In this document: positions 42,044-55,736 of the stretch, piece after piece
Numbering within the stretch: the first letter of the stretch is position 1
Layout: the number at the start of each line of letters is the position of its first letter
Made by a program: the position numbers and the translations under genes
Assembly (NCBI GenBank): GCA_011364925.1
Contig: RDOA01000009.1
Location: forward strand, 1 to 64,000
From: Promethearchaeota archaeon
GTDB taxonomy: Archaea > Asgardarchaeota > Lokiarchaeia > Sigyniarchaeales > SOKP01
Direction: 5' to 3'
Length of the DNA stretch: 64,000 nt
The notes under the pieces: model-generated
Database searches by the model: none
The model's input: only the letters and a program-made list of their open reading frames with translations
Told to the model about the DNA's origin: nothing

Positions 42044-43264
42044 ATGACAAATAATATTCTTCTGAAACAATACAATTTGGTTTTAATAAGATACGCAGAG
42101 ATTTGGCTTAAATCACAGAAAGTTAAAATCCGTATGCTGAATTATCTAATGAACAACATCAAGAATATACTAACGCGAAAAAGTATACCATTTAATAAGT
42201 ATCAGATAAGCAAAGATTCTTCAAGAGTTTTTTTCTTTTTTAATAATAAAGATATTCCAGACGCGATAAATGTAATAAAAAATACATTCGGAGTTCATTC
42301 TATTAGTCCAGCAATTAGAACATCAAACAACATCGAAAATATTACAGAAAGAACGATTGAGGTTGCACATGATGTGCTGGAAAAGAACGATTCTTTTGCA
42401 TTAAGGGTAAAGAGGTCTGGAAATCATACATATACTTCAATGGAAGTCGCTCAAATTGTTGGTAAAGCTATCTTAGATAAATTTTCTGATTTCAACCTAA
42501 AAGTTAATCTCACACAGCCCAAAAAACAAATCTTTATAGAAGTGAGAGGGGATTTTACATACATCTTTTCTCAAGTAATAAAGAGTAAATGGGGGGGGCT
42601 TCCAATAGAACCACAAAAAAAAATGTTTGTAATGGATGTCGGGAGACTTAACGATCTAATAGCAGGATTTTTGTTGTTAAGAAGGGGTGGAGAGATCTAT
42701 CCAATTTTAATTGATGTTAATGACAACAAAGCTCATGAGGAGATGTGGTTATCGAATTGGAAAGAAGTAAGTGAATATATCCCTTATAGTCGATTTCGTT
42801 TGATCAAAATCAATATTCACCATATTCTAAAGAAAATTGCTTCGGAATTGGAGTTTCTTCACTATATTTGTGGTATTTGTAGGTTAATTAGGTTTGAAAT
42901 TGTATCCAAAATTCTGAACAATCCGAGTTTTCATTTTCAGAATAAAATTAGAGCAAGTGTAGACGGGATTAGTTTGAATTGTTCGAGTCTTTGTCCTGAT
43001 TCAATTGACTTAGAATCTTTAGTACATAATAGTTTAATTTCGAATGTTCCAATATTTACACCGGCAATAGGCTTTAGTAATAGAACATTAGGTGAATTAG
43101 GAACGAAAATATCCCCCAAATTGAATGAATTTGACTATTGCCCTTTCACCCCAGAAAAACAAGAATTTAATGTGATTAAAATAAAGGAGATATACGATAG
43201 ATTGAAAATTGACAAAATAATTGAAGATAGCATAGCAGATAGGTTAGAATTAAAAATTTTATAA
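42044..43264 (+). CDS. ThiI-like protein lacking the PP-loop
   Basis: This 406-residue protein has the ThiI layout: N-terminal ferredoxin-like part, THUMP domain (about 60-170) and ATP-pyrophosphatase domain (from about 185). ThiI adenylates U8 of tRNA, then transfers sulfur. The ATP-binding PP-loop, normally SGGxDS, reads 'MDVGRLND' (197-204): the Ser, one Gly and the Asp-Ser are gone although flanks ('GGLPIEPQKK', 'AGFLLLRRGG') still align. A CxxC near 276-279 ('YICGICR') is kept. It thus cannot bind ATP conventionally. A ubiquitin-like gene follows. Confidence 0.82.
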   Translation: MTNNILLKQYNLVLIRYAEIWLKSQKVKIRMLNYLMNNIKNILTRKSIPFNKYQISKDSSRVFFFFNNKDIPDAINVIKNTFGVHSISPAIRTSNNIENITERTIEVAHDVLEKNDSFALRVKRSGNHTYTSMEVAQIVGKAILDKFSDFNLKVNLTQPKKQIFIEVRGDFTYIFSQVIKSKWGGLPIEPQKKMFVMDVGRLNDLIAGFLLLRRGGEIYPILIDVNDNKAHEEMWLSNWKEVSEYIPYSRFRLIKINIHHILKKIASELEFLHYICGICRLIRFEIVSKILNNPSFHFQNKIRASVDGISLNCSSLCPDSIDLESLVHNSLISNVPIFTPAIGFSNRTLGELGTKISPKLNEFDYCPFTPEKQEFNVIKIKEIYDRLKIDKIIEDSIADRLELKIL

Positions 43265-43368: not shown

Positions 43369-43650
43369 ATGGTTAAAGTTGATTTGAATTTGTTAAACAT
43401 ATTCGTGCTACGAGTTAAGAAAAGTAAGATTCAATACGAGGGAGATACCGTAGGCGACATCATTTCCCAATTTCTTGCAGAATATAAAGATCTCTTAGAT
43501 GATAGTATTCTAACTAAAAATAAGAAGAAGTTAAATCCACAAATGGTAATTTTACTCAACGGTAGAAACATTACCTACATGAAAAATTATAAAACAAAAC
43601 TAAATGACGGAGATCAAATCTATTTATCTTTTCCTATATCGGGAGGTTAA
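43369..43650 (+). CDS. Ubiquitin-like (MoaD/ThiS/SAMP-type) protein ending in GG
   Basis: This 93-residue protein has the beta-grasp pattern of sulfur-carrier or modifier proteins, with 'ILLNGRNITYMKNYKTKLND' and the end 'GDQIYLSFPISGG'. A C-terminal Gly-Gly is activated by an E1-like enzyme to a thiocarboxylate, or to form an isopeptide. Archaeal SAMPs do both. It starts at ATG 43369 just 105 bp after the ThiI-like gene on the same strand, which suggests sulfur delivery to, or modification of, that protein. No E1 gene is in the window. Confidence 0.85.
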   Translation: MVKVDLNLLNIFVLRVKKSKIQYEGDTVGDIISQFLAEYKDLLDDSILTKNKKKLNPQMVILLNGRNITYMKNYKTKLNDGDQIYLSFPISGG

Positions 43651-43813: not shown

Positions 43814-44746
43814 ATGAAGAAAATTGCTTTTATGGGGCTTGACTATGCGGGCAAGACCAGCATCATTACTGCGATCACAAAAAGGTTTGGTTTTGAAGAA
43901 GAAATATTGAATTTACTCCCTACCAGAAAAATTGCTCGAGATGCATTTAAATTCTTAGGTATCGAATTTACTCGTCTTGATTTCGGTGGCCAATTGCAAT
44001 ACAGAGAGGAATATCTGAAACATCCAACTAAGTACATTAGCGGAACCGATTTATTGTTCTACGTTATCGATGCTCAAGATTACGATAGATACGTTGAGAC
44101 TATAGATTATCTTGACCAAATTTTGCTTTTTCTAAAGGAGGATCAAGAATACCCTCCGTTGTGCATATTACTTCATAAATTCGATCCCGAACTAACTCGT
44201 GAAAAAGTAATAAATCAAAGAGTTTTAACAATTAAGCAAGCTCTTCTACGTTATAGTCATGATTTCGACATATTTTTCTTTGAGACTTCAATTTACGATA
44301 TAAAATCGATAATGGATGCTTTCTCCTCAGGTCTATCATTATTGTTTGACAAAATAGAGATGGTTTCTCGTTTGTTTTCTCGAATTAGCAAGAATTACAA
44401 CTCGATTTTGATGGCCCTCTTTGATTCTAAGGGGATAACAATAGGAGAATATTATAGGCCTCATTTACACTTAACGGAAAAAATTCGGATTTATGATAAA
44501 TACTTGGAAGTCCAAAAAAGAATTTTAACTGAAAACAGAAAGCGTTTGGAGTTTTCAGATAAATTTGATGATGGAAATAGATATTCAGGATTGGTAGAAG
44601 CGTTGAAGTTTGGAAATCTAGACTTTTATTTGCTTTTCATAATAGAAGAAGACGAAGAACATCTGGAAAAAACTATTGAAGTCTTAGACAAATTAGAATC
44701 AGCAAAAGCTCAAATGGAATCCATAATAATAGAATTAATTCAGTGA
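43814..44746 (+). CDS. Rag/Gtr-like GTPase with C-terminal roadblock-like domain
   Basis: This 310-residue protein has an N-terminal small GTPase domain with G1 'GLDYAGKTS' (8-16), G3 'DFGGQ' (56-60) and G4 'HKFD' (121-124), where the His in place of Asn is the hallmark of Rag/Gtr GTPases (HKMD). The C-terminal part (about 195-310) shows alternating strands and helices ('NYNSILMALFDSKGITIGEY', 'LDFYLLFIIEED') like the roadblock/longin domain of RagA-D. In eukaryotes Rag GTPases recruit TORC1 to lysosomes. Here it may act in nutrient or membrane signalling. Rag-like genes have been reported in Lokiarchaeota. Confidence 0.82.
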   Translation: MKKIAFMGLDYAGKTSIITAITKRFGFEEEILNLLPTRKIARDAFKFLGIEFTRLDFGGQLQYREEYLKHPTKYISGTDLLFYVIDAQDYDRYVETIDYLDQILLFLKEDQEYPPLCILLHKFDPELTREKVINQRVLTIKQALLRYSHDFDIFFFETSIYDIKSIMDAFSSGLSLLFDKIEMVSRLFSRISKNYNSILMALFDSKGITIGEYYRPHLHLTEKIRIYDKYLEVQKRILTENRKRLEFSDKFDDGNRYSGLVEALKFGNLDFYLLFIIEEDEEHLEKTIEVLDKLESAKAQMESIIIELIQ

Positions 44747-44782: not shown

Positions 44783-45031
44783 CTAAAAGGTCAATTGAAT
44801 TGTTATTGCTTCTTCACCCTTTAAATGAACTGGTCCAATTGTTTTCTTTGGAATTTTGGTAATTCCTCTCGTTATTATCTTTTTTACTACTTCTTTATTT
44901 AAATCATCAGGATTATATCTTATGAAATTAATTAATTGAGAGGAAATTTCCTCAATTGCTTTATCGTAAAGATTAGACTCAGAATATAATTCTTTATTCA
45001 ATTCGCTTAAGACAATAATTTTACCGAGCAT
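44783..45031 (-). CDS. Hypothetical protein, 82 residues
   Basis: A small mixed-charge protein with a helical N-terminal half and a beta-like end ('KEEAITIQLTF' region). It converges with the Rag-like GTPase gene, 36 bp away, and precedes the tRNA gene on the same strand. I do not recognise it. The codon usage looks like a real gene. Confidence 0.5.
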   Translation of the reverse strand: MLGKIIVLSELNKELYSESNLYDKAIEEISSQLINFIRYNPDDLNKEVVKKIITRGITKIPKKTIGPVHLKGEEAITIQLTF

Positions 45032-45066: not shown

Positions 45067-45171
45067 CGCAGATGGAGGGATTCGAACCCCCGAGCGCTTA
45101 CGCGCACCGGCTTTAACGGATATAAGGTAATACTCTCGAAGCCGGCGTCTTACCAGCTAGGCTACATCTGC
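45067..45171 (-). tRNA. tRNA-Ser(CGA) with 22-base intron
   Basis: On the minus strand, the acceptor GCAGATG (from 45171) pairs with CATCTGC, followed by discriminator G (45067) and no encoded CCA. The anticodon stem CCGGC/GCCGG encloses TT-CGA-G, then a 22-base insert at 45113-45134, then A: an intron at the canonical 37/38 position. A long variable arm (GCGC-GTAA-GCGC) marks class II, and the T arm has GGTTCGAATCC. Anticodon CGA (45136-45138) reads UCG. G73 is typical of serine tRNAs. Confidence 0.93.
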
Positions 45172-46518: not shown

Positions 46519-47631
46519 ATGCCTGTGGGTTTAGTGGTTATGAAATGGGATGATCGTGTTGGGACAGAGATTTTAACTAAGTATCCCGAAGAATTGGCGA
46601 TAACCGATAAAACATTGATGCAAGTATATAGTACGCACGAGTACAGCGGAGAATCAGGGATGATTAGCTTAATGGTTGGATCTCTAAATATCGCATCATA
46701 TTACACTGGACCAGATAAAGGCTACTACTTACTGCTATTATTGAATATAGATGATGATCCCGATACATATGAGGGAGGATTAATCACAGCTTCTAGGACT
46801 GTTTTAGAAAACCTTGAAAACGATGCATACAAACAAATGATTCCCTTTCTTTATAGGAGACTTTCCGTATTCCCGACTTTAACTAATGAACAACAACTTG
46901 CAGAATTTTATCAAGATGAAGTAAAACGTTTGATTTTAGACCGTTTGCGAGAAGAAGGCACAGTTTCTAAATCAGAATTAACAATTTGGCTTAAAGATAG
47001 ATACAAACATGGATTCGTAGATTTAGAAGGTGCTATTTTAGAACTCATTAAAAAAGATATCGTTAAGGAATCATCAGTGAAAGGAATACCTTCTGAGTTA
47101 CTCTTTCTGACGAATGATCTATTGGTGATGAGAATTCCTGCAACAGTTCTTTATAAATCACCTAGTGATAGAGGTTTACCTTCCCAATTTAGTAAAGATT
47201 ATTTAACGGAAACAAGGAATTATTTTCAGAAGTACCATCCTTCTGAGGAGGATAACCTTAGAATAGCGCAAATGTTCAGTGATCCTCAGGCATATGAAGT
47301 CTTGAGATTATTGAGAACTGCAATTGTAACAAAGAACGATCTTGAAAAATTGAAGAAGAAAGGAGTTGAAGACATTGATAATATTCTGAGATTACTTTGG
47401 GAAAATCAGATGATTCTGGTTTTTAGAGACGATAAAAATACTGAATATTATGCTCTTCTTACGGATTTTCTTATACAATTAATTTTCCCTAAATATTTAT
47501 TAAATGTAATTAAATCTGAATACGATACTAAATCAAAAGCAGAGCATGTTTTAATAGAATACCTTAATGTTCTTGAAGACACCTATTTAGGTTTAAAATC
47601 GATTGTTAAATCAAGAAAAAAAGCTAAATAG
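46519..47631 (+). CDS. Longin/roadblock-like plus winged-helix protein, copy 1
   Basis: This 370-residue protein has an N-terminal domain of about 125 residues ('GLVVMKWDDRVGTEILTKYP', 'GYYLLLLLNIDDDPDTYEGG') with a strand-helix order like longin/roadblock sensors, and two winged-helix-like parts (about 130-215, 'VSKSELTIWLKDRYKHGFVD'; about 265-345, 'VLRLLRTAIVTKNDLEKLKK'). It has no membrane segment. A close paralogue lies at 52143-53246, on the other side of the giant surface protein. GGAGGTACG precedes its ATG. Function unknown; likely an adaptor or regulator for the membrane protein. Confidence 0.7.
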   Translation: MPVGLVVMKWDDRVGTEILTKYPEELAITDKTLMQVYSTHEYSGESGMISLMVGSLNIASYYTGPDKGYYLLLLLNIDDDPDTYEGGLITASRTVLENLENDAYKQMIPFLYRRLSVFPTLTNEQQLAEFYQDEVKRLILDRLREEGTVSKSELTIWLKDRYKHGFVDLEGAILELIKKDIVKESSVKGIPSELLFLTNDLLVMRIPATVLYKSPSDRGLPSQFSKDYLTETRNYFQKYHPSEEDNLRIAQMFSDPQAYEVLRLLRTAIVTKNDLEKLKKKGVEDIDNILRLLWENQMILVFRDDKNTEYYALLTDFLIQLIFPKYLLNVIKSEYDTKSKAEHVLIEYLNVLEDTYLGLKSIVKSRKKAK

Positions 47632-47835
47632 GAATGGCTATTCGTTCCTTATTATATTTCTTCTAATTTTGGAAATTTTCAAATTGATTTTTAGGTTTAA
47701 AAACGAATAATTGCTTATATTAGGTTTATTAAGATTCTTTTTACTAATAATTAAATATGCAAAAAGGTACTTATAAAGTTAAAAAGTTCTTATTTTAAAG
47801 CATATCTAAAAAAAAACATAAATAGGTAAATGTAA

Positions 47836-50800
47836 ATGAATGTTAGAAAAAAACAAAAATTCAAAATGACACTGGTTTTACTTACGATCTTAATTCCAAC
47901 TGCTACATTTTCTATGATTTTATTTAATCAAGGAAATTATGGCGACAAAAATAATATGATATCTGATGGAGCGGAAAATCCGTTTGATAGGGAAGGAGGA
48001 GATAACTATTATCCCAGAACTTCCGAAATCACTCATTTGAATGACAAATATGATTTATCTATCTGGTGGAATAAGACTTATAGGTTCAGAATTGGTTTTG
48101 TTTTAGAAGAAACTGAAGGAATTGATCGCTATCAACCTGTTGATGTGTTTTTTACATTCAGAGAGGATGAACATTATGAAAACACTGAAAGACTCGTTAG
48201 CTTTAACGCAACGGGAAACGATGAGTGGAGCGATCCATTACCGTTGCAAATGTGGAACATAACTAAATATCCCGCGACGAATTTTATAGAATCCTGTACA
48301 GTAACATTTCTCGCAAATGTTTCAGCTAATACAAACAAAACGTATTTTCTTTATTACAATGAAAATAATGCGGGAATTGAACAAATTGTATATAATACTG
48401 GTTTCACAAGCGAGAAATCGGGGTTGACTCTAACTGTAACAGTAGGAACTGACTATCAAGTGGTCCTAAAGCAAGGATTAGCGTCAACGCAGTTAATAAG
48501 AGAAGGATTAAATTATCACCAAGATGAGTCTTTAGCTCCAGAAAAGCAATTATCAGATCCAAGCTTGAAATTTTTGGCTCATTTTGAGAATTCAGTTTCT
48601 GATTCGTCAGGGAACGAACCAGATGGAACTATCAATGGTGATCCTCAATATATAACGGGAATAGTACAATATGGAATGGATTTTGACGGAAATGATTTTG
48701 TAAGTTATGCTAATGGCCTTGAAAGCATAGGAGATCCACTAAACGGCCTTAGCAACGAATTTACGGTATGTTTTTGGATTAACCCCGATGATTTATCAGG
48801 TGGAGCAACTAATCACCAAACTGAGAATGTAGTGGCAGCTAAAGCTAGTGATTCATACAATGATAACTTTGAATTGGGAGTGAACAACGAAGGAAACATC
48901 CATGTTTATCTTGATACCGAGACCAGAGATACCTTTGCTGATTTTGCCCCCGCTGGAACAATTACTACTACAGGTGGGTGGTATTTTGTCGCTTTTAGAT
49001 ATCAACAGGGGATTGCTGAAGTAAGGATTGTTCAAATAAACAATCCAAGCAATCCAAATAATGATATCTGGTGGTCAATGCCTAATTGGAATGGAGCAGA
49101 CGATCTTGATGAAGCTGATGGTAGTCCGTTCACTATTGGAGCTTCTGAGCACATAGATCAATTTTTCAAAGGCGCAATTGACGAGTTTGCCGTTTACAAT
49201 ATATATCTTTCTGATCAAGAAGTTGAAGATTTTAAATACGGTTCAATGCCCTCTTCGATTCAATCAATAACAGAATTAGAGAATGGTCCCGTATTTTCCA
49301 GCTATGACGTTAAATGGACAACTACGTTTGATATGCATATTGAAGATACTTGTACATTTTACTACGATTATGAACTATGGAATCTAGAACGAAGTATTTA
49401 CTTTGAAAACGAATTCAACTACACGATTGATAGAATGTTTGCTTTAAATACAAATTATAATTTTACGGTAGTTGATGATCACGAGGACTTGTTATACATC
49501 TACGATGGTATTATCCAAAAAGACATAACTTCCGCGGGATTTGTTGCTGAAAATTATACTATTGTTCATAACGCTCCAGATGCATCTAAAGATGCAATAG
49601 GAGTGTTCATTGAAGGATATGAATTATCTGATCCCGCCCATACATCGATATCGTACCTTAAAGGTGATGTAATTTACGATAATGGTGATGTTGAGTTTAT
49701 ACCCGGTTCATTAAACGATTTTGATAATAGCGTTGGGAACGAATCCTATCAACTAAAGATCAATTTCTGGGAATTGGCAGGAAGTGTTAATAAATCAGGA
49801 AATTTAGATAATACTGGCATGATCCAATATTTTGACGACACATTGTTATCCTTACGGGAAGAAGTAGACGTTTTTATTTATCAACAGGATAGCCTTTTCT
49901 ACAGCATCGACGTAAATGTGACTGATATTGATGGAAAATTAGTTCCAGACGCGACAGTAACCGTTTGGAATGCATCTGATTATACTACCTTCTGGACTCA
50001 AGACACAGATGCGTTTGGTCGTACTATTTTTAATCGATTTGAAAACGGACTTTATGTAGTAAATGTGTCTTACGTAAGATATGGCCAAACTCTTAGCATC
50101 ACAAATCCACAAGTTATTGAACTTAATGAAACTAATGTAGATACGTTTGGAGTATATTACCTTAGCTTTACTAATGTAAAGTTAACTTCTTTAGAGTTAA
50201 AGTTTCAGCGAGAAGATATGGGTACGATTCAAGAGGACGTAGTCGGTGCTAACATCACTTTTTCGATTGACGACGGTTCTGGATCAGTTATATTAGGATA
50301 TGAACTTACTAACTCCACTGGTGTTACTATATTTAGATGGGCTAATCTGACAGATGCTAATAGTGGAAATGTGAGTCTTACGGTTAATTGGCACGGCGAG
50401 AATTATGAAGATTTAGCTTGTGCTGATGATCTAAACCCTTCAGATATCGCTAGTATAACTTTACCCTTTTATCAATATCTCTATTCCGTTATAAATGTAT
50501 CTACTGGAAATACTTATCAATCTTTCCTAACAGTCAATGAAAGTGGAACAATAGATGTGATGTTAGGAGACCCATTGAGTCTTTGGGTAAATTACACTCA
50601 ACAAAAGAATTTGGATCCAATAACTCCAATTGAAGGTGGAACTGTAAGCTATAATATAAAAATCGGTACGCTACAAATTAATTCAGGAACACTCACATTT
50701 TCTGAAACGGGAAATGGTGTCTACAGTCTTTATATCGATACTTCAAATCCTGTAGAACCTGCTGGTGCGAATTGGTTATCCAGTGAGACATATACAATGG

Positions 50801-52143
50801 AAATAACTGCTTCTAAACCAGGATATACTACAATCCAAACATCGATCACTTTTACACTTTTGGATAAATTGACAGCTTTAAGTGCAAGTGATCCCACGCC
50901 TCAAGTTTATTACAACGATCCCATATCTTTCAATGTACATTATACAGATGTTTATGCTGAACCTGACCAAGATATCGATGGTGCTACAGTTCAATTTGTT
51001 GCAATTGGAGTTACGGGTGTTAATGGATATTTAACACCGTTAGGATCTGGTCTATACTCCTTTAATCTTGATAGTTCGGTTTTTCCGACTCACGGAGATT
51101 ATATATTGCAAATTACTGCTTTTAAGCAGAATTACGAAACTCAAACGATTTATCTTCCGCTCTCAATAGAAAAGATAAATACAAGACTTAACGATTCCGC
51201 TGCAATATATGATACTTACAATGTTTTTATAGGCGTTGAAAAGATTTTTTACTTTGAGTATACAGTTGAATCGTCAGGAATAGGATTATCAGGTGTTTCT
51301 CTAAGTGAATGCGCATGGGAAAAAGCAGTCAGCGGAGTCGTTGTAGATAGCGGTGTGGCTTCTTTAAATAGTATGGGTAATGGAATGTATTCGTTAGATT
51401 TAAACACTGAAAACTTAGAAATCGCGACCTATACTCTCATAATAAGATTAGGGGAAAATAACTATGTCGAAAGAGATGCAATCATATTCTTGAATATAAT
51501 TCCTAGAGATATTCATGTAGATGTGGATGATTTAATATCAGTAGTTTCTGGTAATAAACTGTCAATTGATATTTCGATATTTGATGCCATTGATAATTCA
51601 CCTTTACAAAATGCGGAAGTAATTTTAGAATTGAACAATGTAACTTATGGCTACTTTGATGATATTGGTGGTGGCACTTACTCAATAACTATTCCTGATT
51701 CCGATCTTATTGATGCTTTTATCGCTAATGTATTCATACAAGCTAATATAATCGTGAATAAAGTTAACTATAGTCAAACAACCAAATCATTTGCAATAGA
51801 AGTAAAAATGACAGAGATTTTCCCAGGCTTTCCAATGTTTTACTTTCTAATGTTGATTGGTGCCGTTGTTGCTGTGGTTGCTGCTCTTGTTATATCTCGT
51901 CAAGTGCGTAGAGCTAGGATACCCACATTTGTCAAGAAGGCAAGAGAGATGACTAAAAACATAAAAGGAAGGAAAGGCATATCAGATTCGCTTTTATATC
52001 CATCTAAAGAAGAATACATTGTTAAAAAACTAGGAGATAAGTGGGAATTGCTTGATTTGTCTTTGGTAGATATTCTAGGTGTCAGCACAAAGAAGAAAAA
52101 GAACTTGCCAGAACCAACTGAATTTGAGGGAGGTGGATTATAG
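47836..52143 (+). CDS. Giant surface protein: signal, DUF2341, LamG, Ig-like repeats, C-terminal membrane anchor
   Basis: This 1435-residue protein has an N-terminal signal/anchor (about 11-30), a DUF2341-like domain (about 75-180, 'YRFRIGFVLEETEG'), a LamG/concanavalin-like domain (about 245-415, 'LKFLAHFENSVSDSSGNEPD', 'GGWYFVAFRY', 'AIDEFAVYN'), a carboxypeptidase-regulatory-like fold ('DGKLVPDATVTVW'), and several Ig-like repeats with 'DATVQF'-type motifs ('GGTVSYNI', 'GATVQFVAIG', 'NAEVILELN'). A membrane helix (about 1332-1354) is followed by RQVRRAR and a 75-residue cytoplasmic tail. It should project outside the cell to bind glycans or proteins. The stop overlaps the next gene's GTG by one base. 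Confidence 0.85.
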   Translation: MNVRKKQKFKMTLVLLTILIPTATFSMILFNQGNYGDKNNMISDGAENPFDREGGDNYYPRTSEITHLNDKYDLSIWWNKTYRFRIGFVLEETEGIDRYQPVDVFFTFREDEHYENTERLVSFNATGNDEWSDPLPLQMWNITKYPATNFIESCTVTFLANVSANTNKTYFLYYNENNAGIEQIVYNTGFTSEKSGLTLTVTVGTDYQVVLKQGLASTQLIREGLNYHQDESLAPEKQLSDPSLKFLAHFENSVSDSSGNEPDGTINGDPQYITGIVQYGMDFDGNDFVSYANGLESIGDPLNGLSNEFTVCFWINPDDLSGGATNHQTENVVAAKASDSYNDNFELGVNNEGNIHVYLDTETRDTFADFAPAGTITTTGGWYFVAFRYQQGIAEVRIVQINNPSNPNNDIWWSMPNWNGADDLDEADGSPFTIGASEHIDQFFKGAIDEFAVYNIYLSDQEVEDFKYGSMPSSIQSITELENGPVFSSYDVKWTTTFDMHIEDTCTFYYDYELWNLERSIYFENEFNYTIDRMFALNTNYNFTVVDDHEDLLYIYDGIIQKDITSAGFVAENYTIVHNAPDASKDAIGVFIEGYELSDPAHTSISYLKGDVIYDNGDVEFIPGSLNDFDNSVGNESYQLKINFWELAGSVNKSGNLDNTGMIQYFDDTLLSLREEVDVFIYQQDSLFYSIDVNVTDIDGKLVPDATVTVWNASDYTTFWTQDTDAFGRTIFNRFENGLYVVNVSYVRYGQTLSITNPQVIELNETNVDTFGVYYLSFTNVKLTSLELKFQREDMGTIQEDVVGANITFSIDDGSGSVILGYELTNSTGVTIFRWANLTDANSGNVSLTVNWHGENYEDLACADDLNPSDIASITLPFYQYLYSVINVSTGNTYQSFLTVNESGTIDVMLGDPLSLWVNYTQQKNLDPITPIEGGTVSYNIKIGTLQINSGTLTFSETGNGVYSLYIDTSNPVEPAGANWLSSETYTMEITASKPGYTTIQTSITFTLLDKLTALSASDPTPQVYYNDPISFNVHYTDVYAEPDQDIDGATVQFVAIGVTGVNGYLTPLGSGLYSFNLDSSVFPTHGDYILQITAFKQNYETQTIYLPLSIEKINTRLNDSAAIYDTYNVFIGVEKIFYFEYTVESSGIGLSGVSLSECAWEKAVSGVVVDSGVASLNSMGNGMYSLDLNTENLEIATYTLIIRLGENNYVERDAIIFLNIIPRDIHVDVDDLISVVSGNKLSIDISIFDAIDNSPLQNAEVILELNNVTYGYFDDIGGGTYSITIPDSDLIDAFIANVFIQANIIVNKVNYSQTTKSFAIEVKMTEIFPGFPMFYFLMLIGAVVAVVAALVISRQVRRARIPTFVKKAREMTKNIKGRKGISDSLLYPSKEEYIVKKLGDKWELLDLSLVDILGVSTKKKKNLPEPTEFEGGGL

Positions 52144-53246
52144 TGCCCGTTGGTTTAGTTGTTATGAAATGGGATGAGCGCATCGGTACTGAAATCTTAG
52201 CCAAATATCCCGAGGAAATAGTCATAACTGATAAAACACTGATGCAAGTGTATAGCACGCACGAGTATAGTGGAGAGTCAGGGATGATCAGTTTAATGGT
52301 TGGTTCTTTAAATATCGCTTCTTACTACACTGGACCAGAAAAGGGATACTACATTCTCATGCTTTTAAATCTCGACGATGATCCTGATGCTTATGAAGGG
52401 GGCCTAGCTGACACAGCCAGGATAATATTGCAAAATCTAGAAGATGAGGCATTTATAAAACTCGTTCCTTCATTATTCCGCAGACTTTCGGTTTACCCAA
52501 CATTAAATGATGAACAACGATTAGCGATGACATATCAAGATGAAATTAAACGCATGATTATCAATCGGTTAAGGGAAGAAGGGGTTGTCTCCAAATCCGA
52601 GCTAATGGTTTGGTTAAAAGACAGATATAAGCAAGGATTTGTTGACTTAGAAGGCGTATTAAGCGAATTGATTAAGAGGGAACTTATTAAAGAAACCTCT
52701 GTTAAAGGGATGCCTTCTGAGTTGATCTTTCTTACAAACGACATCTTAATGTTGAGAGTTCCTCCCGTAAAATTGCTCAAAGATCCAGGAGATAAAGGTC
52801 TACCTGCAAAGCTTGTTTCTGATTATAAAATGGAGATCAAAAAATATTTTCTTAACTATCGACCATCTGAACAGGACAATCTCAGGTTAATTGATAACAT
52901 TATTAATCCCCAAGTTTACGAAACACTGCGTTTGTTAAGAACGGCAATTGTAACTAAAAATGATCTCGAGAAATTGAAAAAGAAAGGTGTTGATGATATT
53001 GACGAAGTTTTGAAAATGCTTTGGGAAACTCAAATGATTCAAGTGTTTCAAGACGATAGAAACAATGAGTATTACGCCTTACTTTCAGATTTTTATGTGG
53101 ATAAAATCTTTCCGAAATATTTAATGAATGTCATTAAATCTGAATATGAGAAAAAATCAAAAGCAGATCAAGTCTTAGTTGAATACCTAAATATTCTCGA
53201 GAATACATATATCAATTTAAAATCAGCTGTTAAATCAAAAGATTAA
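52143..53246 (+). CDS. Longin/roadblock-like plus winged-helix protein, copy 2
   Basis: This 367-residue protein is very similar to copy 1 over its whole length; the first 75 residues are almost identical ('LMQVYSTHEYSGESGMISLM', 'VGSLNIASYYTGP'). DNA third positions differ, so the duplication is old or conserved by selection. Its GTG start (52143) overlaps the TAG of the surface protein, indicating translational coupling and a functional link. Two winged-helix-like parts follow the sensor-like domain. It may act on the cytoplasmic tail of the surface protein. Confidence 0.7.
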   Translation: MPVGLVVMKWDERIGTEILAKYPEEIVITDKTLMQVYSTHEYSGESGMISLMVGSLNIASYYTGPEKGYYILMLLNLDDDPDAYEGGLADTARIILQNLEDEAFIKLVPSLFRRLSVYPTLNDEQRLAMTYQDEIKRMIINRLREEGVVSKSELMVWLKDRYKQGFVDLEGVLSELIKRELIKETSVKGMPSELIFLTNDILMLRVPPVKLLKDPGDKGLPAKLVSDYKMEIKKYFLNYRPSEQDNLRLIDNIINPQVYETLRLLRTAIVTKNDLEKLKKKGVDDIDEVLKMLWETQMIQVFQDDRNNEYYALLSDFYVDKIFPKYLMNVIKSEYEKKSKADQVLVEYLNILENTYINLKSAVKSKD

Positions 53247-53347: not shown

Positions 53348-54703
53348 GTGATAATATTGGCTGAATATGATAATTTTGATTTAGAAAATCTAGCAAAACC
53401 AAATGCACTCCCTGAAGATATCGATTATGAGACTCATATAATTGCTACTTATAGCGCAATGCTTCATCGAAAAATGGATGCTTTTTATATGATGCAAGCG
53501 GTATGTGTTGAGCAATCAACTGGTACATTTGTCCCTGTTCCCGCGGAAACCCCTGAACAACGAAGAAAGCATGTAGCGAAAGTTATTGGGTGGTGGAGAG
53601 TCCCTGATTTTGAGTATGAGGGTGCTGAAGATTTTTTTGGTAGTCCTAAAATGTATCAATATGTAGTTCAAATTGCATATCCGTTAAACTTTAAACCCCA
53701 ATTCCCAATGTTATTTACGACAATTTATGGAAATATATCAATGGGTGGACCACTTAAGATGCTTGATGTCCGATTCCCAAAAGCGTTTCTAAAAGAGTTC
53801 AAGGGTCCAAAATTCGGAGATGTTGGGGTTCGAAAGATACTAGGAGTTAAAGAAAGACCACTTTTGAATAACATGATTAAACCTTGCGTCTACTCTGATC
53901 CAAAAATAGGAGCAGATTTAGCGTATCAAGCAGCTGTTGGAGGATGTGATGTCATAAAAGATGACGAATTAATAGCTGATGTGGATTTTAATCCAATCAC
54001 TGAAAGAGTTACTGCTTTTATGGAAGCTTTGGATAGAGCTGATTCTGAGAAAGGAGAAAAAACTCTTTATACCGTTAATATCACCGACAGAGTAGAACGG
54101 ATGTTTGAATTAGCAGATATTGTGCAAGAACATGGCGCCAATGCGTTAATGGTAAATCACATATCGGTAGGTTATTCTGCGTTGAGAAAATTAGCAGAAG
54201 ATCCTTCCGTAAAGGTTCCAATACTAGGACATATGGATTTTGCTGGTTCCTTATTCCAAGATCCCTTAAGCGGAGTTTCAAGTCCACTGGTACTTGGTAA
54301 ATTTGGGAGATTAGCTGGTTGTGATTTCATAGTGCACCCTGCCCCTTATGGCAAAGCCCCTACTTTAGTTGATAGATTCAAAGAGACTGCACGTCAAATG
54401 GTAATGCCGATGCGAAACGCTCCGCATATTAAAAGAACGATGCCGATGCCAAGTGGAGGAATAACTCAAAGTCTTGTCGAGAAATGTGTGAATGATTTAG
54501 GCACTAATATTATGATTGGTAGTGGCGGAGGAATTCACGCGCATCCAGATGGTCCAATAGCAGGAGCTAAAGCTTTTAGACAAGCCATCGATGCTGTAAT
54601 GAAAGGAATTCCAGCAAGAGATTATGCGAAAGATCATAAAGAGTTAGCTGTAGCATTAGGTTTGTTTGGTATTGGAAAAAAGACAGAATTTACGTCAGTC
54701 TAA
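53348..54703 (+). CDS. RuBisCO-like protein (form IV type)
   Basis: This 451-residue protein has the RuBisCO large-subunit fold. Kept residues: 'EQSTGT' (E55, T60), N129 in 'YGNIS', K178 in 'MIKPC', the carbamylated-Lys motif 'IKDDE' (K204-E207), H295, H330, K336, 'PSGGI' and 'GSGGGIHAHPDG'. Lost or changed: TrpW66 is Phe, the second Lys of KPK is C180, and the Arg after His294 is Met. These changes argue against CO2 fixation; RuBisCO-like proteins act as enolases or isomerases in sulfur-sugar or thio-sugar salvage. Start GTG 53348, or TTG 53360. The gene stands alone. Confidence 0.85.
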   Translation: MIILAEYDNFDLENLAKPNALPEDIDYETHIIATYSAMLHRKMDAFYMMQAVCVEQSTGTFVPVPAETPEQRRKHVAKVIGWWRVPDFEYEGAEDFFGSPKMYQYVVQIAYPLNFKPQFPMLFTTIYGNISMGGPLKMLDVRFPKAFLKEFKGPKFGDVGVRKILGVKERPLLNNMIKPCVYSDPKIGADLAYQAAVGGCDVIKDDELIADVDFNPITERVTAFMEALDRADSEKGEKTLYTVNITDRVERMFELADIVQEHGANALMVNHISVGYSALRKLAEDPSVKVPILGHMDFAGSLFQDPLSGVSSPLVLGKFGRLAGCDFIVHPAPYGKAPTLVDRFKETARQMVMPMRNAPHIKRTMPMPSGGITQSLVEKCVNDLGTNIMIGSGGGIHAHPDGPIAGAKAFRQAIDAVMKGIPARDYAKDHKELAVALGLFGIGKKTEFTSV

Positions 54704-54737: not shown

Positions 54738-55736
54738 TTATCCGTTTGTACCAAATCTCTTATCCAATCTTTCTTCCAAATCTATTAAGGAGTTTTCTTT
54801 AAGAATTCTAGTATTCGGGCTAAAATCTGTACTTTGTATATAGTTAGCAAGGTCATTTCCTCTTAAATCAATTAGTTCTAAAAGTGGGATTTGTTTCAAG
54901 TATTCAATGTTTTGTGGGTCACTTAACTTATTGTTTGATAAGTCAAGATGCGTTAAACTTTTCATTTCAACCAGAGCTTTAAGGTCGTGAATTTGGTTAT
55001 TTGCAAGATTCAAATTTTGCAGATTTTGTAGATTTTTCAAACCTATTATCTTAGATACAGAATCAATGTTGTTTTTCCAGCCCCAGGGTGTCCCCTTGAC
55101 TTCAAATTCGAGATAGTCGGATAAATCTAATCCATTAATCAATACATCTTCAGAATTTAGTTCAAAATATACATTTGGGAACTCTTTGATTAATTGCCTA
55201 ATTGTAAAGAAGTTGATAAGAATGTCGCCAAGTTGTTTATTTGAATAAGCATTGATTTTATTCCTCTTAATTAAAGGCTTTAGAGCTTCTTTATATTTTC
55301 TATTTTCATAACCTTTCTCAGCATTTATATATTGAAGCTTCCTAATCTTCTTTAATTGGTCTATTAATTCTGCTCTGGACTCTTTAGAGTCGATTTTCAC
55401 TAAAGCTTTAACAACTGTCAATAAACACTGAAAGGATTTTTCGTGTCGAATCGTCCATTTAAATATAGCTAAACTTTTATTGATATGGTGTTCACATAAA
55501 TAAATAGCAGCAGCGTTCCGAATAATTTCACTTGAATCAGAAGTTAATAAGCTCTCAAATAGATCATATAAATTCTCATTTACAAATTCCTTATTACCTA
55601 GAACTTTAATTGATTCTTCTCTTATCTTATCATTATCATAATTCTCAAGGATAGAAGCTAATAGATTAATAGCTGTGTCTTTACTTAGTTTGTTATTTAT
55701 ATATTCTTTATAAATAGTATTAGGACTTAATTCCAT
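54738..55736 (-). CDS. HEAT-like/leucine-rich repeat protein
   Basis: This 332-residue protein has an N-terminal helical repeat part (about 1-190, 'IIRNAAAIYLCEHHINKSLA') and four leucine-rich repeats at about 225-310 ('LQNLNLANNQIHDLKAL', 'LTHLDLSNNKLSD'). The N-terminal part is homologous to that of the LRR protein at 62372-63760 ('ELIRNEAALILCHEYKQKAL'). Asgard genomes often have such proteins; they probably bind proteins. No enzyme motif is seen. Confidence 0.8.
   Translation of the reverse strand: MELSPNTIYKEYINNKLSKDTAINLLASILENYDNDKIREESIKVLGNKEFVNENLYDLFESLLTSDSSEIIRNAAAIYLCEHHINKSLAIFKWTIRHEKSFQCLLTVVKALVKIDSKESRAELIDQLKKIRKLQYINAEKGYENRKYKEALKPLIKRNKINAYSNKQLGDILINFFTIRQLIKEFPNVYFELNSEDVLINGLDLSDYLEFEVKGTPWGWKNNIDSVSKIIGLKNLQNLQNLNLANNQIHDLKALVEMKSLTHLDLSNNKLSDPQNIEYLKQIPLLELIDLRGNDLANYIQSTDFSPNTRILKENSLIDLEERLDKRFGTNG

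Follow-up and report, generated by a model that had tools for sequence, protein, structure and literature searches.

In the 64,000-nucleotide stretch of contig RDOA01000009.1 from a Promethearchaeota archaeon (assembly GCA_011364925.1; hereafter the window), a gene for a giant single-anchor surface protein of 1435 amino acids (aa) is followed by a coupled gene for a longin/winged-helix (longin/wH) protein, called here copy 2, and the two probably belong, with a probability of roughly 0.55, to an Asgard module that occurs across the phylum and in which a surface protein and a longin/wH adaptor act on an Arf/Rag-type GTPase at the plasma membrane. The surface protein would be a type-I adhesin or receptor, with a variable LamG/Ig-type ectodomain, one transmembrane (TM) helix and a conserved basic tail, co-translated with the adaptor or fused to it. 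The acidic longin domain of the adaptor may dock on this tail at the plasma membrane, and the other longin face and the winged helices would bring in a small GTPase of the Arf/Rag type; the best candidate is the longin-Arf GTPase, held by pairing between the two longins. The surface protein would thus position or switch the GTPase at the places where the cell is in contact with its environment. The reading is carried directly by the gene linkage, the coupled frames and co-translation signals, the fusions, the tail homology and the recurrent adjacency of longin-Arf genes, the longin fold being taken from a weak model; the binding of the tail, the longin-longin pairing, the direction of regulation, the ligand and the control of the GTPase are what we infer. 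The module reaches far beyond the window, with representatives across the phylum and with natural fusions. The features of the locus are the following.

46519-47631, +: copy 1, a longin/wH protein of 370 aa (open reading frame, ORF; tree position)
46519-46878, +: longin domain of copy 1, residues 1-120 (alignment with copy 2)
47836-52143, +: giant single-anchor surface protein, 1435 aa (ORF; homologues found by the tail)
47869-47925, +: signal-peptide-like hydrophobic N-terminus of the giant, residues 12-30 (hydropathy)
48742-49224, +: Laminin_G_3/concanavalin-like domain of the giant, residues 303-463 (Pfam E 7.6e-16)
49906-50094, +: weak CarboxypepD_reg/Ig-like match in the giant, residues 691-753, the first of several Ig-like segments (Pfam 0.0013, below cut-off)
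51838-51894, +: sole, C-terminal TM helix of the giant, residues 1335-1353 (hydropathy 2.86)
51910-52140, +: cytoplasmic tail of the giant with the conserved juxtamembrane motif RIPxFVKK...IK...IS...GDKWExLxLSLxDILG (TM/tail profile A3, E 1e-38)
52129-52135, +: Shine-Dalgarno-like GGAGGTG of copy 2, within the giant's tail codons for EGGGL
52143-53246, +: copy 2, a longin/wH protein of 367 aa with a GTG start (ORF)
52143-52502, +: longin domain of copy 2, residues 1-120 (AF2 model and fold search)
52509-52757, +: proposed winged helix 1 of copy 2, residues 123-205, not confirmed (Pfam eWH_GTF3C1 0.018 only)
52893-53117, +: winged helix 2 of copy 2, residues 251-325 (PH1932 profile match; HTH_20/HTH_5 in family members)
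43814-44746, +: Rag/Gtr1-like GTPase, 310 aa, membership of the module unproven (Pfam Gtr1_RagA 1.3e-24)

The preliminary description of the window had placed the giant between two close paralogues, the second of them coupled to it by 1 bp, and this is borne out by the ORFs and the junction bases. The TAG stop of the giant (52141-52143) and the GTG start of copy 2 (52143-52145) share one base pair (junction ...GGGAGGTGGATTATAGTGCCC...), and the stretch before the start of copy 2, GGGAGGTGGATTATAGTG, contains the Shine-Dalgarno-like GGAGGTG in the last tail codons. The two paralogues are 69-70% identical, and the Pfam and NCBIfam scans give no family name for either of them.

Conserved linkage in relatives had been set beforehand as one of the tests on which the description should stand or fall, and the locus passes it. 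A profile of the TM helix and tail, made from a 36-sequence alignment, was run on a set of 58 related genomes without reference to the neighbouring genes, and the neighbourhoods of about 100 loci were read. At E<=1e-20, 63 of 64 tail matches, distributed over many genera, are followed immediately by a longin/wH gene in the same orientation, at a distance of mostly 28-69 bp from the end of the profile match; the single exception lies at the edge of its contig, which stops 164 bp away, and no complete counter-example was found among the 64. These are not 64 independent events, because the seeds of the profile were picked by adjacency and many of the genomes are closely related. The linkage is nevertheless real and widespread and not a matter of chance. 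In the two branches nearest to the window, nearly every longin/wH gene stands directly behind a gene for a signal-peptide and single-TM protein of 537-4963 aa. The families f8, f9 and f11 have surface-protein neighbours as well, some of them with the order reversed (longin-surface). Of the 195 genomes of the phylum, 135 carry the longin/wH family at the same threshold, and these belong to 41 of 57 genera.

The coupling seen at the junction of the window is the usual one: 24 of 41 tight pairs overlap by 1 bp and seven abut, and a Shine-Dalgarno-like motif lies within the last 20 nucleotides of the surface gene in 38 of 41 linked pairs. The GGG conserved at the C-terminus of many tails was considered as a protein motif and rejected, since these codons hold the Shine-Dalgarno sequence of the gene downstream and are kept as its ribosome-binding site and not for a function of the protein.

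In several genera the whole arrangement, signal peptide, ectodomain, TM helix, tail and longin/wH protein, is encoded in one frame of up to ~2650 aa. Four tandem fused frames of ~2650 aa were found in genome G034, two of them read whole, and others in G182 (2087 aa), G188 (at least three), G019 (727 aa, with an open end) and G185, where a 550-aa chain of TM helix, tail and longin/wH protein has almost no ectodomain. As the fused members form one clade (SH-aLRT 98 in a quick tree of 95 sequences), the distribution would most simply be explained by a single fusion that later spread and was duplicated in tandem, and several independent fusions were rejected. The four frames of G034 are spaced at about 8.3 kb on contig C9 (L070, L071), and several copies lie on the contigs of G188; such arrays of fused genes suggest recent expansion and variation.

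The linkage might also come from hitchhiking of neighbouring genes, that is, from co-expression without physical or functional interaction, given that adjacency by itself never proves interaction and that in family f1 the synteny takes in the housekeeping genes on either side as well as the pair itself. This is extremely improbable in view of the fusions, of the order surface-longin in some lineages and longin-surface in others, and of the homology and selective conservation of the tails across branches.

The giant has the marks of a type-I single-pass protein by hydropathy and predicted topology (signal-peptide-like N-terminus, one C-terminal TM helix, basic tail), and the same layout of signal and TM helix, again by hydropathy, was found in almost every homologue the N-terminus of which is complete. 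An FtsW match at 2e-4 over the TM helix was dismissed. The tail of the giant is ~77-82 residues long, and homologues of the giant were recovered by the tail search in 22 of 23 genera. The core consensus in the 36-sequence alignment is RIPxFVKKxRxMxxxIKxxKxIS...KEExIxKxLGDKWExLGLSLEDILG. When the giant of the window is compared with seven relatives, the tail core is 75-87% and the longin/wH partner 83-96% identical, whereas the ectodomain is only 10-79% identical, so that the intracellular end and the neighbouring protein appear to be kept constant while the outside part is exchanged; many different ectodomains carry one common tail. In a second branch, the longin/wH protein of which is only 26-30% identical to that of the window, the gene also stands behind surface proteins, with tails of the type FKYPPMVRKIRKLRKKIRKGKK...REEI. 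The tail profiles of the two branches match in hhalign (93-96%, E 3e-7; score 37.4 versus a maximum of 21.4 in 200 column shuffles), by which the tails are judged to be homologous. Their net charges are +8 and +12, and that of the longin domain is -9 on average; the acidic longin domain, the basic tail and the fusions together suggest that the adaptor binds the tail. The longest protein with the same tail, of 4963 aa, is encoded at L135 355-15246, and the longin/wH gene that follows it is cut by the contig end.

The conservation of the tail may be read in a second way, with the longin/wH protein as a cargo or placement adaptor that sorts, clusters or places a passive surface protein, for example in protrusions, and is itself brought to the membrane by the longin-Arf GTPase. 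Such a role would suit one tail shared by many ectodomains and most conserved of all parts of the surface protein, and in eukaryotes Arf recruits longin-containing adaptors that read the tails of cargo; the N-terminal domain of the Arf partner, described below, is AP-sigma-like (AP-2 sigma E 0.08; Clat_adaptor_s E 0.015). However, strict 1:1 co-translation and fusion would be more natural in a dedicated subunit than in a reusable sorter, and no large subunit of a coat turned up in the neighbourhood, where no search was aimed at large subunits. A pure cargo adaptor is judged unlikely, although it deserves serious consideration. Sequence cannot tell inward signalling by a receptor from an adaptor that places its surface protein as cargo. 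The vesicle-related role offered as one option in the preliminary description is neither supported nor contradicted by these results. The most far-reaching form of the preferred module, in which Asgard transmembrane surface receptors would signal directly to Arf/Rag-type GTPases through a dedicated tail-binding longin/wH adaptor, as an outside-in or surface-placement switch predating the eukaryotic longin-GTPase and cargo-adaptor systems, is put forward tentatively, at somewhat less than even odds.

The GTPase that recurs beside the longin/wH genes is of the Arf type with a 120-residue N-terminal domain. It adjoins the second surface/longin pair of the window's own genome (contig C24, L065) and several other loci, and at L132 its gene lies among three surface/longin pairs in tandem. 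Across the 58 genomes, 17 of 66 strong matches to this longin-Arf GTPase lie at <=6 kb from a longin/wH gene, 16 of them within 1 kb, where ~0.7 would be expected; nine of the 17 were not search seeds. The background of such GTPases in all loci read is 39 of 1182 genes. The relative orientation varies, with convergent, divergent and same-strand cases. In families f10 and f17, which do not belong to the class of the window's genome, each of the six loci read (L061, L119-L123) has the longin-Arf gene 12-41 bp behind the longin/wH gene and in the same direction. The N-terminal domain has AP-2 sigma as its best PDB profile hit, in register, and matches Pfam Clat_adaptor_s in one member over residues 1-122, on the strength of which it is probably a longin too. 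As hhalign gave no match between this domain and the N-terminal domain of the longin/wH proteins, the two longin-like domains belong to separate families. At L119-L123 a weakly coiled-coil protein of ~110 aa follows the longin/wH and longin-Arf operon. A different set of GTPases was met at L058, where the surface gene is followed after 3 bp by a Ras-like gene, then by a gene for a 158-aa protein and then by a Rag-like one.

The Rag-like GTPase reported upstream of the pair in the window is indeed present, ending 1.77 kb before copy 1 (Gtr1_RagA above the Pfam cut-off; phmmer 4.4e-33 to the solved GTP-binding protein 8yl2), but it is at most a candidate member of the module. A tRNA gene (-), an S25-like ORF (-) and a methyltransferase gene lie in between, and the GTPase gene is therefore not in the operon of the module. 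Within family f1 it keeps its place close to the pair in at least six genera; this synteny is weaker evidence, as the methyltransferase, the S25-like ORF and other unrelated, housekeeping genes are syntenic too, and the recurrent partner is the longin-Arf GTPase.

The fold of copy 2 was approached with AlphaFold2 (AF2) models built on a four-sequence alignment, to the small size of which their low confidence is due. The model of the whole protein (predicted local distance difference test, pLDDT, 37) was left out of fold matching, and residues 1-120 alone (pLDDT 51; predicted template-modelling score, pTM, 0.46) give the order b-b-a-b-b-b-a-a of the longin topology, with the elements E4-11, E15-22, H30-39, E47-53, E56-62, E69-75, H85-99 and H104-117. 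The best VIA matches of this model are Lst4 (Z 11.1), a Lokiarchaeota longin (10.9) and NPRL2 (10.7; 119 residues, root-mean-square deviation 2.7), followed by FLCN, C9orf72, TRAPP, DENN and AP and COPI subunits, and the 50 matches listed (Z 11.1 to 8) are mostly longins; the best VIA score in cases without a clear match is typically Z 7 to 8. Thus, the N-terminal domain of copy 2 is supported by the model as a longin. The preliminary proposal of a longin/roadblock-like sensor stands in its first half only: the model and the alignment open directly with strand b1, without the N-terminal helix before the sheet that marks a roadblock domain, and the domain is taken as a longin rather than a roadblock. 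The likeness to small-GTPase regulators proposed with it agrees with the fold matches to NPRL2/NPRL3 and Lst4.

Two winged-helix modules had been proposed as well, and the second is recovered, by a PDB profile match to PH1932 (E 0.004 over residues 248-312) and by HTH_20 in one family member (9.9e-8). The first gave nothing above noise, the only match being eWH_GTF3C1 at 0.018 in 3 of 43 members, which was dismissed. The likeness of winged helix 2 to archaeal transcription regulators, seen in the PH1932 and HTH_20 matches, would allow for a membrane-tethered regulator of the CadC/ToxR kind, in which the surface protein senses and the partner or fused part binds DNA through its winged helices. 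Such a regulator is improbable: the putative recognition helices GFVDLEGVLSELIKREL and GVDDIDEVLKMLWETQ have mean net charges of -1.4 and -1.3 in 43 members, which is unfavourable for binding to DNA, neither the longin domain nor the link to GTPases would be accounted for, and the winged helices of ESCRT-II-type proteins bind proteins (PMC10936438). In the same family alignment R205 is present in 43/43 and R266 in 40/43 members, both being candidates for function. Stand-alone homologues of the longin domain, of ~125 aa (hhalign 99.8%), were met at L040 600-977, L058 7733-8119, L059 5802-6188 and L081 6248-6625, three of the four close to longin-Arf GTPases, and at L090, L091, L095 and L096 the longin/wH protein carries a C-terminal extension of 200-300 aa (TPR in L096) and is unlinked to surface proteins.

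Copy 1 had been described as one flank of a unit with the giant and copy 2; the giant and copy 2 remain as the unit, but copy 1 does not. It forms a clade with its counterparts in G021 and G014 (support 99 in the tree of 95 sequences), sister to the clade of copy 2, is found as a type in 3 of 58 genomes without a surface protein of its own, and is a recent duplicate. It was accordingly rejected as a conserved partner, and a general mechanism cannot depend on it, although it could pair with copy 2. The family to which it belongs is present in all 58 genomes by protein search. In a scan of named genomes the only relative was Candidatus Lokiarchaeota archaeon YT5_023, evidently the same assembly as G021, and no relatives of the family were found in the viral contigs searched.

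A tandem pair of paralogues, a Rag-like GTPase nearby (syntenic in the f1 genera mentioned) and GATOR1/SEAC entries with NPRL2/NPRL3-type longins at Foldseek ranks 1-7 for the residue 1-120 model would together suit a longin GTPase-activating protein (GAP) of the GATOR1/FLCN kind, with copies 1 and 2 as an NPRL2-NPRL3-like heterodimer on the Rag-like GTPase. A heterodimer of copies 1 and 2 cannot be general, however, when copy 1 occurs in three genomes only, and minus-strand genes separate the Rag-like gene from the pair. The b4-b5 loop (columns 64-69), presumably the site that corresponds to Arg78 of NPRL2, has an arginine in at most 3 of 43 sequences. The absence of a conserved arginine there makes a GATOR1-like role less likely, as NPRL2 Arg78, on a loop of the longin domain, is the catalytic arginine of the GAP (PMC8534245). 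This GAP is held to be very improbable.

Several points weigh against the preferred module of surface protein, adaptor and GTPase. The binding and the activity are proposed from sequence and model, the two AF2 models are of low confidence (pLDDT 37 and 51, as given above), and profile searches with the longin domain reached no known longin in PDB or Pfam (three chance hits in the PDB profile search), so that the assignment rests on the fold. The complementary charges of tail and longin domain are weak evidence, because basic residues next to the membrane are general for the inside-facing tails of membrane proteins. Most pairs, that of the window included, have no adjoining GTPase; the longin/wH-Arf pairs of f10 and f17 have no surface protein nearby, and the surface link may therefore be secondary; and there are surface proteins with weaker tail matches that have no adjoining longin/wH gene.

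Among the known systems, NPRL2/NPRL3 of GATOR1 (SEACIT), the longin GAP of RagA, combine a longin with a winged helix, and they resemble the locus in having a longin among the best fold matches, a paralogous tandem pair and a Rag-like GTPase nearby. They differ in that the proteins described here have no conserved b4-b5 arginine finger, are coupled to a transmembrane surface protein and show no detectable sequence similarity to them. The Arf-recruited AP/COPI coats, with their longin mu/sigma subunits, likewise bring together longins, an Arf-family GTPase and the tails of single-pass proteins, and the Arf partner carries a longin that resembles AP sigma; in the Asgard module, however, this longin and the Arf domain are in one chain, the longin/wH protein would be the tail reader and is co-translated with or fused to its 'cargo', and no large adaptins turned up, none having been the aim of a search. 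SRalpha/SRbeta (the SRX longin with a membrane GTPase) and the longin SNAREs place a longin at the membrane beside a GTPase or a TM anchor, and SRX is among the fold matches of the copy 2 longin model (7obq_y, Z 8.2), but in the Asgard module the part of the anchor falls to a giant protein with an ectodomain and a conserved tail.

For Asgard archaea, PMC10933270 already describes Rag-like GTPases, longin domains and fusions of longins with GTPases, and PMC9834061 counts an 'NPRL2-like longin domain' as one of the trafficking-type proteins that are enriched in Ca. L. ossiferum; numerous longin proteins are thus on record for Loki. The longin/wH family may be part of this longin/roadblock/GTPase inventory. 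No report of a coupling or fusion of a longin with a surface protein was found in a partial search of the literature, including passages of these two papers; the module can be seen as a variant of the known longin-based GTPase modules, with a fair chance of being a new kind of receptor system. Asgard genomes are rich in longins and small GTPases, but the pairing of each regulator with its GTPase, and their functions in cells free of organelles, have still to be worked out; the matching is hard because, according to PMC10933270, genes for GTPases do not as a rule share operons with those for longins. The module offers a matched set of a surface protein, a longin/wH adaptor and a longin-Arf GTPase, the partners of which are directly testable owing to the operons and natural fusions. 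It is also a candidate for the cytoplasmic connection of the irregular surface proteins that have been seen on Lokiarchaeia (PMC9834061), and, if the reading is true, eukaryote-like longin-GTPase machinery would have been working at the plasma membrane, reading the tails of surface proteins, before there were endomembranes.

Several minor observations concern the surrounding genes. Distant surface/longin pairs in several genera are followed by a protein of 640-667 aa (L085 7459-9390, L086 10578-12497, L083 1304-3307, L098 1082-3085), which in L085, the sole one scanned, has a TrmB-type winged helix and a coiled coil. In the window, copy 2 is directly followed by a gene for a RuBisCO-like protein (53348-54703, +; RuBisCO_large 1.2e-45), the best NCBIfam match of which, an MtnW-type enolase, is below cut-off, and which in some close relatives is swapped for a paralogue only 54% identical; next comes a protein with HEAT and leucine-rich repeats in one chain (54738-55736, -). 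Upstream, a 105-base tRNA gene (45067-45171, -; Rfam 43.6 bits), missed by ARAGORN, probably contains an intron. The 82-aa ORF at 44783-45031 (-) corresponds only to the N-terminal ~71 residues of proteins of 356-362 aa found at the same place in relatives and looks like a truncated remnant in this genome. Farther upstream, a gene for a protein of 406 aa that is ThiI/THUMP-like by eye (42044-43264, +) and its neighbour for a ubiquitin-like or sulfur-carrier-like protein of 93 aa with a Gly-Gly end (43369-43650, +) stay together in relatives.

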